A DNA stretch of 64,000 nucleotides from Chlorobaculum parvum NCIB 8327 (lineage in GTDB: Bacteria > Bacteroidota > Chlorobiia > Chlorobiales > Chlorobiaceae): contig NC_011027.1 in assembly GCF_000020505.1 (NCBI RefSeq), positions 1,844,001 to 1,908,000 of the forward strand, written 5' to 3'. Positions 16,199 through 20,984 of the stretch are shown piece after piece. Within the stretch, counting starts at the first letter, position 1. Every line of letters begins with the position of its first letter. Under the pieces are notes generated by a model, which was given only the letters and a program-made list of their open reading frames with translations, was not told the DNA's origin and did not search any database. Position numbers and translations under genes: made by a program.

Positions 16199-18610
16199 TC
16201 AGCGGATTTCAACCACCGTCACGCCTGCGCCGCCCTCCTGCAAGCTACCGAGCCGGAAGCTCTTGACGCGCGGATGTTGCTTGAGAAATTCAGCCGTGCG
16301 CAGCCGCAACGCGCCGGAGCCTTTGCCGTGAACAATGGTGCCAGACGGCATCCGGTGCATCGCCAGCGCGTCGATGAAGCGGCCGATCTCGGCGATCGCC
16401 TCGTCGCCGGTCAGGCCACGCAGGTCGAGCCGAGTCGATTCGAGCGTTGACGCTTTGACCGACCAGCTTTTGGATGAAGCCTGAGGAGTCGATCCCTCCT
16501 TTTGCAGCTTTTTGGCTCCAGCGCGGGAGATCTTTTCAAGTCCGCGCAAGGCGGTGGTGAGCCGGAAATTACCGCACTGCACCACGGCAGAATCGCCCTG
16601 GATCGACTCCACCTCGCCGGTAGTGTTGGTGTCGCCGATCCGCACCGTGTCGCCGGGGCGGATGCTCAGGTCGGCCTGCGGCGCAACTTCCCGCTCGACG
16701 GCCTCCTCTTTCGACGCGGCCTCCTGCTTCATCCCGGCCAGCCGTGTACGCGCCTTGTGCAGCGTGGGCTCGTCGCCGGGATGCTCCTTCACCTCGCGCA
16801 CGAGGTCGCGAATCTCCTTGCGCGCCTGTTCGAGCTGGCGGTTCAGGTCGCGGAATCCCTTGCTTTTCAGCTCCTGCATCTTTTTGCGCAGCTCGGCCCG
16901 CTGCAAGGTCAAGGTCGAGCGAATCGATTCGGCTTCGAGCCGTTCGCGCCTGAGTTCCGTTTCCAGCTCGCGGTTCTGCGCCGCAGAGTGCCGGAAATCC
17001 TCGATCATCTCCTCCAGCCCGGTGTGGCCGGTCGTGAGGAAGCCCGAAGCGCGGTTGACGATTTCGTCCGAAAAGCCCATGCGCCGCATCATCGCGAAGG
17101 CGAAGCTGTTGCCCGGCACGCCTTTGAGGAAGCGGAAGGTCGGCGCAAGGCCGTTGCGGTCGAACTCCATCGCGCCGTTCACGACGCCGTCGCGCCGGTG
17201 GGCATAGACTTTCAGCTCGCCGAGGTGGGTGGTGACGACCGTCTTCACATCCCGCGTAATCAGTTCCTCGATCACCGCGCGGGCGATGGCGCTCCCCTCC
17301 TCGACGTCGGTGCCGGAGCACAGCTCGTCGATCAGTACGAGGCTGCCCGGCACGGCGCGGTCGAGAATGTCGCGGATCGCCGCAAGGTGAGAGCTGAAGG
17401 TCGAAAGGTCGTTCTCGATGGACTGCTCGTCGCCGATCTCGATGAACAGCCCGGCGAAGTGCGGGAACTCCGAACTCTCGCTGCACGGGACGAGATAACC
17501 GTGCTGCAACATGCAGCAGAGCAGGCCGACGGTCTTCATCGCCACCGACTTGCCACCCGCGTTCGGCCCCGAAATCACCAGCGCCTGCTCGTTTTCGCTG
17601 AGCTCCATGTCGAGCGGCAGCACCTTCTCCTTCGAGAAACCGTGCGAGATGAAGAGCCACGGATGGTACCCTTTGACAATCTTCAGCCGCCGCCCCGCCG
17701 AGAGTTGCGGCAGCATCGAGCCGGTCTCGACGGCGAGCCGCGCCCGCGCGTAGAGCGAGTCGAAAGCGGCCATGATCCGCTCGTTGTGGCGTACGTTGTC
17801 GAGTTCCTGACGAACTCCGCTGGAAAGTGCCTTCAGGATGCGCTCGATCTCTCGCCGCTCGGCGATTTCGAGCTCCTGGATGCGGTTGCTGATTTCGAGC
17901 GTTTCGGCAGGTTCGACGAACACCGTCTGGCCGGTCTGCGAGTAGTCCTGGATGTAGCCGTGCAGCCGGTGTTTGTTCTCGACCCGGAGCGCCAGCACCT
18001 GCCGACCATGCCGGAAACCGACCGTCTCCTCCATCAGCCACCCCTCGTTCTGGCAGCGCCGCAGCAGCCGCTCCATCTTGCGACGCAATCCATCACGCGC
18101 CTCGCTGAGGCCGTTGCGGATGTCGAGCAGCGCGTCGCTGGCCGTATCGCGCACCATACCCCGCTCGTCGATGGCCAGCGCCACGGCGTACTGGATGCTC
18201 TTTTCCAGCCAAAGCGCGATGGTCAGATCGTTCAGTTCGGGATAGATGTCGCGGTTGGAAAACATGAACCGCCGAAGCTGCGCTGCACTTTGCAGCAACG
18301 CCGCGATGTCGAGCAGCTCCTCCGGATCGAGCCAGCTTTCGAGCACCTCCAGCTTGTCGAGCAGGCGGCGGGTATCGGGCAGTTGCGAAAACGGCAGCGG
18401 CGCGCCCTCGAAGAGAAAGTTCTTCAACTCCAGCACCCGCTTCAGCTCCCGCTCGGTCTCACCCGCCAGAGGAGCCTCCATCCGCTCCACGAGGTCGCGC
18501 CCCATCTCGGAAATACAGAACCCGGCAGCATACCGCGCCACCTTATCGAACTCAAGCTTTTTGAGAAGGGAGATTGACTCTGTTGTTGTCGATTCGTCCA
18601 TGTTCACCAT
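16199..18610 (-). CDS. mutS2: Endonuclease MutS2
   Basis: 803-residue MutS2: MutS-like core and clamp, ATPase, coiled coil and C-terminal Smr nuclease domain. Walker A is GPNAGGKS, followed by MKTVGLLC. The signature VLIDELCSGTDVEEGSA matches the Walker B/ABC region. Residues around 520-640 are a long charged coiled coil. The Smr domain shows LDLRG and IVHGKGSGALR. It suppresses homologous recombination or rescues collided ribosomes in other bacteria. ATG at 18610, with a second in-frame ATG three codons on; neither has a strong ribosome binding site. A 691-codon antisense frame here is a GC-rich shadow. Confidence 0.95.
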   Translation of the reverse strand: MVNMDESTTTESISLLKKLEFDKVARYAAGFCISEMGRDLVERMEAPLAGETERELKRVLELKNFLFEGAPLPFSQLPDTRRLLDKLEVLESWLDPEELLDIAALLQSAAQLRRFMFSNRDIYPELNDLTIALWLEKSIQYAVALAIDERGMVRDTASDALLDIRNGLSEARDGLRRKMERLLRRCQNEGWLMEETVGFRHGRQVLALRVENKHRLHGYIQDYSQTGQTVFVEPAETLEISNRIQELEIAERREIERILKALSSGVRQELDNVRHNERIMAAFDSLYARARLAVETGSMLPQLSAGRRLKIVKGYHPWLFISHGFSKEKVLPLDMELSENEQALVISGPNAGGKSVAMKTVGLLCCMLQHGYLVPCSESSEFPHFAGLFIEIGDEQSIENDLSTFSSHLAAIRDILDRAVPGSLVLIDELCSGTDVEEGSAIARAVIEELITRDVKTVVTTHLGELKVYAHRRDGVVNGAMEFDRNGLAPTFRFLKGVPGNSFAFAMMRRMGFSDEIVNRASGFLTTGHTGLEEMIEDFRHSAAQNRELETELRRERLEAESIRSTLTLQRAELRKKMQELKSKGFRDLNRQLEQARKEIRDLVREVKEHPGDEPTLHKARTRLAGMKQEAASKEEAVEREVAPQADLSIRPGDTVRIGDTNTTGEVESIQGDSAVVQCGNFRLTTALRGLEKISRAGAKKLQKEGSTPQASSKSWSVKASTLESTRLDLRGLTGDEAIAEIGRFIDALAMHRMPSGTIVHGKGSGALRLRTAEFLKQHPRVKSFRLGSLQEGGAGVTVVEIR

Positions 18611-18691
18611 ATCACCATTTCACTTCGTTCACGCTTCTGGCCGCCAAGATAAAAGATAATCCCGAAAAAGCTGAGGGCGAGGGATTTTGTT

Positions 18692-18707
18692 GGGGGGGGG
18701 GGGGGGG
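18692..18707. repeat. Homopolymer tract of 16 G
   Basis: Sixteen consecutive G, about 82 bases upstream of the mutS2 start. Such tracts are prone to slippage and to assembly error. It lies outside any supported coding frame, so any effect would be on expression. Confidence 0.9.
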
Positions 18708-18854: not shown

Positions 18855-18894
18855 ATCAAGTGGTCTTATACTGATCCGCATAAGACCACTTGAT
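18855..18894. repeat. 15-bp perfect inverted repeat
   Basis: ATCAAGTGGTCTTAT (18855-18869), 10-base spacer ACTGATCCGC, ATAAGACCACTTGAT (18880-18894). The spacer and start of the right arm (CTGATCCGCATAAG, 18871-18884) recur in inverted orientation at 18999-19012. The layout of paired arms around a short spacer resembles a recombinase or regulator target; no protein for it is in the window. Confidence 0.8.
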
Positions 18895-18998
18895 AAATCG
18901 AGGAAAACGCGGTAAAATTTTAAAATTATGAGCGTTGCGAGATATTTTCGATACTGTCTGGATGCGTCTTATATGGGCTGAAAATCAAAAATCTGCCT

Positions 18999-19018
18999 CT
19001 TATGCGGATCAGCATAAA
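18999..19018. repeat. Inverted copy of CTGATCCGCATAAG with its own small palindrome
   Basis: CTTATGCGGATCAG (18999-19012) is the reverse complement of 18871-18884. With the following GCATAA it also forms TTATGC-GGATCA-GCATAA. It ends just left of the GTTAGCG that starts the nhaA unit. Confidence 0.75.
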
Positions 19019-19052
19019 CAATGTTAGCGCTTGACGATCGGAAAAACACTTT

Positions 19053-20402
19053 ATGATTACAGATCAGCAGGCAAACCCAGAAGCCACCCGATTACCAAAG
19101 GAATTTGTTGATCGGCTGACTAAACCTTTTGTGCGTTTCTTGCACATTCAGTCAGCTAGTGGGGCAATTCTTATATTGTTCACTGTTGCCGCTCTCGTTC
19201 TATCCAACTCACCGTGGGCCGACTCGTTTGAACATGCCTGGGAGACACAGGTTGGTCTTCAGCTTGGGACGTTCGAGTTTGCCCGTTCGCTGCGCGAATG
19301 GATCAACGATGGTCTGATGACGCTGTTTTTCTTTCTGGTCGCATTGGAGCTTAAGCGAGAGTTAATTCTCGGAGAGTTGAACAAGCCTCGCATGGCCGCG
19401 CTATCCATAGCAGCCGCCCTGGGCGGCATGATCGTCCCGGCTGCGATATATCTGGCGCTGCAATCAGGACAACCCGGCGAGCATGGATGGGGCACGGTCA
19501 TGGCAACTGACACGGCGTTTGTCATCGGTTGCTTGGCACTGCTTGGCTCGCGCATACCTCAAAGCTTACGCGTGTTCATGTTGTCTTTGGCGATCTTTGA
19601 CGATATCGGTGCCATTCTTGTCGTCGCCATCGGCTACAGTAGCAACATTGTCTGGGGTGCGTTGGCGCTGGCTACGCTTGGCCTGGTGATTATACGCGCC
19701 ACGGCAATGCTCGGCTTTCGCAGTTTTCCACTCTACTTCCTGGTGGGTGGGGTCATCTGGCTTGCAGTGGATGCGTCCGGCATCCACGCCACCATCACTG
19801 GCATGATACTTGGTTTGATGACTCCAGCCCGCCGATGGGTCAGCGATGAGCGCTTGTACGCGATATTGAGTCAGGTTATTGCGCATCCAGCCAGTGGCGA
19901 AAGCAGTGCGGATACGAAAGATCGGCAGACATTGCAGGTGGCCGAGATTGCCGCGCGTGAAACGCTGTCTCCAGTAGAGCGCCTGGAGATTGGCTTACAT
20001 CCCTGGGTGGGTTTTGTCATCATGCCGCTCTTCGCATTTGCCAACGCCGGGTTGCCACTTACTTTAAATGACCTTGGTAATTCAGTCACCGTGGCAATTT
20101 TCTCAGGTTTCGTGCTTGGTAAGCCTGTTGGTATTCTGTTATTTAGCTGGCTAGCTATACGTTTACACATTGCGATTCGACCCCCAGGACTCGATTGGCG
20201 GTTGCTCGCAGGCGGTAGCTTGCTTGCAGGAATTGGCTTCACCATGGCGCTATTCATTGCGAATTTGGCTTTCGGCAAGAACCTAATTGACAGTGCCAAG
20301 TTGGGAATCTTCCTCGCATCCATGTTTTCCGCAGTGGCAGGTCTCGCACTGTTGATGTGGTCGCCTACACGTGGAAGAACTCATGAAGTGGATCACGCAT
20401 GA
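19053..20402 (+). CDS. nhaA: Na+/H+ antiporter NhaA
   Basis: 449-residue inner-membrane antiporter that exports Na+ in exchange for about two H+. Roughly 12 hydrophobic segments are visible. NhaA signatures: FFLVALELKREL, ATDTAFVIGCLALLG, SLAIFDDIGAILVVA (containing the paired Asp of the ion site), GIHATITGMILGL and LHPWVGFVIMPLFAFANAG. The C-terminal half has GFTMALFIANLAFG. Its codon use is more AT-rich at third positions than in the flanking genes, in keeping with acquisition. It is the only gene of the cassette-like unit. No strong ribosome binding site is seen (CGGAAAAAC before the ATG). Confidence 0.95.
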   Translation: MITDQQANPEATRLPKEFVDRLTKPFVRFLHIQSASGAILILFTVAALVLSNSPWADSFEHAWETQVGLQLGTFEFARSLREWINDGLMTLFFFLVALELKRELILGELNKPRMAALSIAAALGGMIVPAAIYLALQSGQPGEHGWGTVMATDTAFVIGCLALLGSRIPQSLRVFMLSLAIFDDIGAILVVAIGYSSNIVWGALALATLGLVIIRATAMLGFRSFPLYFLVGGVIWLAVDASGIHATITGMILGLMTPARRWVSDERLYAILSQVIAHPASGESSADTKDRQTLQVAEIAARETLSPVERLEIGLHPWVGFVIMPLFAFANAGLPLTLNDLGNSVTVAIFSGFVLGKPVGILLFSWLAIRLHIAIRPPGLDWRLLAGGSLLAGIGFTMALFIANLAFGKNLIDSAKLGIFLASMFSAVAGLALLMWSPTRGRTHEVDHA

Positions 20403-20462
20403 AAAGCGATTCATAAGAGAATGGAGCAATGACAATGGGTGTGGCTCGTGCTGCCAAAACTG

Positions 20463-20536
20463 GCGCTAACAAGGCGCTGCACTCGGATAAATTACTCGCT
20501 GCGCTCGCAATTTACCGGTGAGCGCAAACGTTGGCA
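20463..20536 (+). repeat. attC-like recombination site behind nhaA
   Basis: R'' CGCTAAC (20464-20470) and R' GTTGGC (20530-20535). Inside, GCGCTGCAC pairs with GTGAGCGC if one G is left unpaired, as L''/L' of attC sites do with their extrahelical base. The centre CGGATAAATT pairs imperfectly with AATTTACCGG. Length (about 73) and opening TAACAAGGCGCTGCA resemble proteobacterial cassette sites. A 30-codon frame (20429-20521, ending ALAIYR) runs through it and is probably not a gene. Confidence 0.65.
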
Positions 20537-20600
20537 CAAATAATCGCCTGAGAGAAAAAAGTCTGACTCCCAACACCTCGCAGCATTTGCTCATCCACGA

Positions 20601-20984
20601 TCATCTCCTTCTTCCCCATCTCCGCAGAAACAGCACAACATCCATCTTTTCAACTTCACTTCTCGCAACACCGTAAACCATTTCAACGAGATCATCCTCC
20701 GGCGCTTCGAAATCGTAGCCGTTCAACGCGAGAAAAACGATGGCTGACACTGCGCCGACTCGCTTGTTTCCGTCGAGAAAAGGGTGATTCCTTACCAAGT
20801 GAAACAGATAGGCCGAAGCCATTTCGTGGATGTCGGTGTGCAGGAACTCACCTTTGAACGTTGCCGTCGGCATGGCAACTGCCGAGGTGAGCAGGCCCAT
20901 CTCCCGAACGCCGAGCGTTCCGCCGTAACGGGTGATCTGATCGCGGTGGATGTGCAGAACCTCGTGAAGCTCCAGAAATCTCAT
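20601..20984 (-). CDS. doc: Doc-type (Fic family) toxin
   Basis: 127-residue death-on-curing toxin. The motif HPFLDGNKRVGAVSA is the Doc form of the Fic core (HPFxDGNKR), the variant that phosphorylates EF-Tu and arrests translation in phage P1 Doc. The N-terminal LHEVLHIHRDQITRYGG and GLLTSAVAMP are also typical. It starts 3 bases after the stop of the upstream AbrB-like antitoxin, and the two are surely cotranscribed. It lies 64 bases from the nhaA cassette edge, pointing towards it. Confidence 0.92.
   Translation of the reverse strand: MRFLELHEVLHIHRDQITRYGGTLGVREMGLLTSAVAMPTATFKGEFLHTDIHEMASAYLFHLVRNHPFLDGNKRVGAVSAIVFLALNGYDFEAPEDDLVEMVYGVARSEVEKMDVVLFLRRWGRRR

Follow-up and report, generated by a model that had tools for sequence, protein, structure and literature searches.

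The window analysed here, the whole 64-kb stretch of the NCIB 8327 chromosome, holds a single gene cassette between two minus-strand genes. On the left side of this conserved locus lies a mutS2-like gene (16199..18610), a name given from sequence reading alone, and on the right side a gene of the Fic/DOC family (20601..20984, PF02661), which is kept in relatives, as is the DNA upstream on the mutS2-like side. Between them, on the plus strand, are a putative attI region with no intI attached (18857..19029), an integrated cassette of 1507 bp that runs from the TT of its left junction to the G of its right junction (19024..20530), and an attC site (20464..20536) with R'' CGCTAAC at 20464-20470 and R' GTTGGCA at 20530-20536. 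The cassette carries nhaA (19053..20402), which encodes a Na+/H+ antiporter of 449 aa (PF06965, 449 bits). The attI region opens with a perfect 13-bp inverted repeat around a 10-base loop, seen by folding (18857..18892), and contains a 61-bp core (18963..19023, ending ...GCATAAACAATG|TT); the recipient right half-site TTGGCACAAATAATCGCC follows the cassette (20531..20548). Taken together, the stretch 18857-20536 is very probably a solo, or orphan, attI carrying one integron cassette.

The sequence-only reading of this DNA had proposed an attC-like site behind nhaA, and the site is real. The covariance search that it had suggested returned 20464-20536 as the only attC match on both strands of the 64 kb (40.3 bits, E 2.7e-6) and as the top match of the whole 2.29 Mb genome. 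The model (R2) comprised 15 attC sites from other Chlorobiaceae and Marinobacter, with the window excluded; one of its 15 rows is a partial attC behind the Marinobacter nhaA, which differs from the attC of the window. In the free-cassette form, with R' rebuilt from the first bases of the cassette, the bottom strand folds at -17.3 kcal/mol, against a mean of -7.7 for 500 shuffles, none of which was as good, and this fold consists of a 7-bp R''/R' stem and an L''/L' stem with extrahelical bases. Moreover, an independent search of plasmid records matched the site to the attC of the catB2 cassette (86% over 59 nt, E 1e-10). An RYYYAAC/GTTRRRY-like R''/R' pair, an L''/L' stem and extrahelical bases are thus all present, with R'' CGCTAAC off at position 1. 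As had been noted from the letters, GTTAGCG (19023-19029) is the exact reverse complement of CGCTAAC (20464-20470), so that the first bases of the cassette complement its own R'' at 7/7 positions and the pair brackets nhaA. Two details of the first description needed revision. The L''/L' stem stands, with three extrahelical bases on the top strand instead of one extrahelical G, and the R''/R' pair stands as well, with R' GTTGGCA (20530-20536) now assigned to the recipient flank and not to the cassette, as expected for an inserted cassette. Because R' derives from the recipient flank, the attC at 20464-20536 was not picked up by a scanner for R''/R'/L patterns; an Rfam search of the region gave nothing relevant.

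The gene itself appears to have come from elsewhere. Its closest relative is found in Marinobacter halodurans (89% identity), and a tree of 85 proteins joins the two (support 99/93) within a clade of marine gammaproteobacteria. In M. halodurans, too, nhaA is a cassette, part of a multi-attC array (four strong and two weak attC matches in the contig). The two cassettes share an identical 5' start, GTTAGCGCTTG, and have 3' UTRs that are homologous as far as R'', beyond which their attC sites differ. In the other 85 Chlorobiaceae genomes no nhaA was found, except for relatives of 31-36% identity in four of them. The GC3 of nhaA is 0.57 vs 0.75-0.83 in its neighbours, in agreement with the unlike codon bias that had been pointed out. 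Given this scarcity in Chlorobiaceae, the tree, the cassette in Marinobacter and the GC3, the proposal that nhaA is a horizontally acquired integron cassette is well supported, and its gene is, by these comparisons, of marine gammaproteobacterial kinship. Plasmid nhaA genes reached at most ~62% identity among the matches listed, and no plasmid source was found. A sigma-70 scan upstream of nhaA returned two promoter-like sites, no more than in shuffles, and no promoter is claimed.

The left flank can be identified, by comparison among genomes, as the attI of a Chlorobiaceae integron family, followed by cassettes, because it is homologous to intI-linked sites, has a core like that of a known attI, shows a drop of conservation at the junction and precedes cassettes with complementary ends. 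Indeed, 18857-19029 is homologous to the ~165 bp that separate the intI stop from the first cassette in other Chlorobiaceae, and scores 66.4 bits (E 4e-19) in the R1 attI model, whose 24 rows include the window's own copy; a plain BLAST of the window against the intI-linked copies also matches. In the intI-positive Chlorobiaceae with sufficiently long contigs, intI is oriented toward attI and the cassettes, its stop is followed by a similar palindrome, and the same core precedes G|TT. The core of the window, AAACAATG|TTRRRY, resembles that published for attI1, AAACAAAG|TTRRRY (PMC12901181), and its exact left edge is common to several unrelated sites of the same genome. Over 35 attI-like sites, strong conservation reaches to GTTRRRY and is gone right after; since the last 20 positions served site selection, all that can be learned from this is how far conservation extends upstream and that it is lost downstream. 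At 23 of the 35, the reverse complement of the first 7 cassette bases occurs 150-3000 bp downstream, against a mean of 4.6 and a maximum of 12 in 2000 permutations. The exact 7-mer match is absent at the remaining 12, as expected from decay or from cassettes that end differently.

Some features of the region are worth recording in their own right. The central 18 bp of the inverted repeat at 18857-18892 recur imperfectly at 19000-19017, and the palindrome CTTATRCTGATCCGCATAAG at the left edge, with its imperfect copy just before the junction, might serve IntI as accessory sites, comparable to the direct repeats of attI1. In intI-positive genomes (e.g. at L164, L161 and L166), attI contains, before the junction, a TTGAAA-18 bp-TATAAT motif that may be a cassette promoter; the copy in the window lacks the TATAAT. 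A long G homopolymer at ~18691-18707, upstream of the attI region, varies in length among relatives.

The same locus was compared among sister genomes. In two genomes of the same genus, G014 and G001, the conserved flanks enclose other cassettes, with the left junction again at ...ACAATG|TT and the right one again at G|TTGGCACAAATAATCGCC: two cassettes in G014 and one in G001, encoding a GNAT acetyltransferase. The junctions of the nhaA cassette are identical to theirs, and both genomes have the same attI left edge and no intI. Another cassette stands behind a shortened attI copy in G020, only remnants of the left element persist in G017, G004 and G019, and the element is absent from the locus in G003 and G015. 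The right half-site TTGGCA, which had been predicted from the window, is kept in four genomes, whose cassette contents are all different. An empty site reading AATGTTGGCA had also been anticipated in relatives; it was looked for and none was found, nor did the flank pattern TTGGCACAAATAATCG reveal an empty attI site in relatives. Two one-mismatch matches to TTGGCACAAATAATCG outside the genus were set aside as chance. Since different cassettes occupy the same junctions in sister genomes, the left flank is, on this comparison, a landing site used repeatedly rather than a random GTT. As expected of an attI, it adjoins intI in relatives, ends at a G|TT junction and takes different cassettes at the same base.

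These observations bear directly on the first explanation given for the locus, in which the nhaA cassette entered at a chance secondary (attG-type) GTT. Insertions of this kind are known (PMC12901181), no intI lies in cis, and a two-cassette array elsewhere in the genome (1222650-1224424), with no attI by the model, may be such a case. The target of an attG insertion should be unrelated to attI, whereas here the 61-165 bp left of the junction are homologous to intI-linked attI, at the 66.4 bits given above, and other cassettes fill the same junction in sister species. Insertion at a secondary GTT is thus very unlikely, and the target is better described as an attI homologous to the region beside intI in other Chlorobiaceae. 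No more credit can be given to the repeat being a MITE-like element of another recombinase that stands before cassettes by accident; it would account for the palindromic left edge and the short repeats of the region, but in relatives this repeat comes immediately after intI, and wherever its end was inspected it coincided with the cassette junction. That the inverted 7-mers and the stem arose by chance around an ordinary vertical nhaA, as the modest thermodynamic z-scores of the wider 121-nt region (-1.5 and -1.9) could suggest, is excluded for practical purposes by the attC model, the shuffled folds, the catB2 match, the scarcity of nhaA and the Marinobacter cassette.

For a cassette in a solo attI, the whereabouts of the integrase is the next point. 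The absence of an integrase nearby, already remarked from the sequence, extends to the 64-kb window, where no intI was found, and to the genome, which has none intact (no TIGR02249 match over cut-off). The top two tyrosine recombinases of the genome are XerD, which passes its cut-off at 376.6 bits, and a XerC-like protein, which at 308.7 bits narrowly misses that of XerC; neither comes near the intI cut-off. The genome-wide search for intI returned only a relic at ~923282-923555 (L258, G000:C1:922500-924500), with 37-42% identity to IntI and in-frame stops. The locus is not a complete integron, as no functional intI stands beside attI. Because no intI of this genome passes the cut-off and only a decayed relic is left, the attI of the window is, as far as the genome can tell, solo, either because an adjacent intI was lost or because there never was one. 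The remark that green sulfur bacteria are an unusual home for cassettes has to be withdrawn. They are known integron hosts (PMC2426708, PMC9024848), and intI exceeds the NCBIfam cut-off in 15 of 86 Chlorobiaceae genomes.

Sites of this type are widespread in the family. A model of the 64-bp core gave 362 matches in 71 of the 86 genomes, with 1-16 per genome, and 259 of these sites belong to 56 genomes with attI-like sites but no intI. When genomes were drawn from across the phylum, matches outside the family came from only 2 of ~154, so false matches to the core model should be rare. Genomes with intI have a mean of 6.9 copies vs 3.6 in those without (Mann-Whitney p 0.012, ignoring relatedness). 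The chromosome of NCIB 8327 contains at least six attI-like sites, the nhaA site and five more, each with an ORF close behind. At 571 kb it is a small ORF, without an R'' match; at position 611096 (L205, minus strand, G000:C1:604000-613000) a class D beta-lactamase, with an exact R'' match; at 702 kb (L252) a DUF1883-TIR protein, without an R'' match; at 1.55 Mb a 231-aa protein without Pfam family, with a 6-base R'' match; and at 1.77 Mb (L250) a split AAA ATPase (AAA_15), with an exact R'' match. The attC covariance model gave no score at any of the five, and their putative cassette status rests on the attI junction, the close ORF and the R'' match where present. The nhaA cassette is therefore single at its locus, as had been stated, and not unique in its genome, given these five sites and the two-cassette array at ~1.223 Mb. 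This array (G000:C1:1222650-1224424; L257, 1220000-1227000) has two attC sites and a DUF4145 protein as its first gene; the attI model found no attI there, and it might be an attG-type insertion or have a decayed attI.

The beta-lactamase at 611 kb belongs to the OXA-198 family (NF040806, 538 bits vs a cut-off of 515), and its gene has 81% DNA identity to blaOXA-198 on plasmids of P. aeruginosa and Citrobacter. By this resemblance, the green sulfur bacterium carries an environmental relative of a carbapenemase gene known from the clinic. The DUF1883-TIR protein and the split AAA_15 ATPase are of kinds common in phage defence.

How attI came to stand alone was approached by an intI survey of the 1.8 kb upstream of 36 attI-like sites. 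A full intI is present at 8 and a 3' intI fragment at 4, while 24 have no intI within 1.8 kb, one of these with a marginal match (E 0.14). The sites that keep the 3' end of intI are, judging from these fragments, truncated integrons. The copies found in unrelated contexts share left limits at ~-61, -163 to -193 and -335; a ~170-bp module, with the common left limit at ~-335, precedes the solo sites L205, L250, L154, L033, L030, L209, L210 and L211. We give about even chances to bare attI copies having spread as units over the chromosomes and then captured cassettes. The 1-16 copies per genome, the common left edges in unrelated contexts and the higher copy number in genomes with intI (with relatedness ignored, as above) speak for such a spread; no target duplication and no mobilising enzyme were found for the copies, and their left edges vary, which is also consistent with truncation. 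A smaller but substantial share of belief goes to the solo attI being the leftover of a complete integron at the same locus, with intI deleted in situ. The sites with full intI or a 3' fragment, and the intI relic surviving elsewhere in the genome, are consistent with such a loss, against which no intI trace is present in the 250 bp that separate the window attI from the flanking gene, and G014 and G001 have the same left edge without intI. A mixture of integron decay and dispersal of bare units is the favoured origin.

In integrons generally, IntI binds attI together with the folded bottom strand of attC, and the crossover takes place at G|TT. At the nhaA locus, IntI would have bound the window attI and the folded bottom strand of the attC of a circular nhaA cassette, and joining at G|TT would have placed TTAGCG on the left and the recipient TTGGCA on the right. 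The IntI might have acted before its loss from the genome, or in trans from another element. The same attI has received different cassettes in sister species. In this scheme, the identity of the attI comes from homology to intI-linked copies, and we infer its function as a solo site, without IntI in cis. By extension, Chlorobiaceae may possess a distributed integron, with many solo attI sites that hold one or few cassettes each and are loaded in trans by transient IntI; we offer this only tentatively and would sooner bet against it.

The usual picture of cassette capture is one attI beside one intI. The docking site described here is multi-copy, outlives its integrase and, at one and the same position, differs in cassette content from one sister species to another. 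The nhaA locus also shows that marine gammaproteobacteria and green sulfur bacteria exchange cassettes, and at the 611-kb site a gene closely related to a clinical carbapenemase gene stands at a solo attI. Three questions can now be put to the test: the way in which attI spreads, the possible action of IntI in trans on remote attI sites, and the number of lone cassettes that have gone unnoticed. By default, IntegronFinder 2.0 requires two attC and detects attI only for class 1 (PMC9024848), and a solo attI with a single cassette would be overlooked because of these settings.

Chlorobi integrons, the inverted layout, intI loss and lone cassettes are each already known (PMC2426708, PMC3607928, PMC9024848, PMC12901181). 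Our literature search met no report of dispersed, cassette-loaded, multi-copy solo attI in Chlorobi, which is weak evidence, as most subscription papers were outside its scope. The locus is like a sedentary chromosomal integron of inverted layout (Treponema type; Chlorobi) in that attC cassettes are joined to attI at G|TT. In Treponema integrons, intI is transcribed toward attI and the cassettes (PMC3607928); unlike in such inverted-layout integrons, the window attI has no intI beside it and several attI copies lie on the chromosome. The locus shares with a CALIN (PMC9024848) attC cassettes without intI, but has a recognisable attI with a single cassette after it; at least two attC without intI, as in a CALIN, occur at G000:C1:1222650-1224424 and not at the nhaA locus. 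It is similar to an attG insertion in being a lone cassette in a chromosome without intI beside the cassette, and differs in that its target is homologous to a true attI and reused by other cassettes. As in Treponema phagedenis, cassettes remain after intI loss, although that report concerns attC sites only, with no dispersed attI copies (PMC3607928). Finally, the delta-attI cassettes of class 1 and 2 integrons (PMC12901181) are also attI pieces out of their usual place, with the similar core compared above; delta-attI replaces attC at the 3' end of its cassette, whereas the attI of the window stands at the 5' side, as the recipient.
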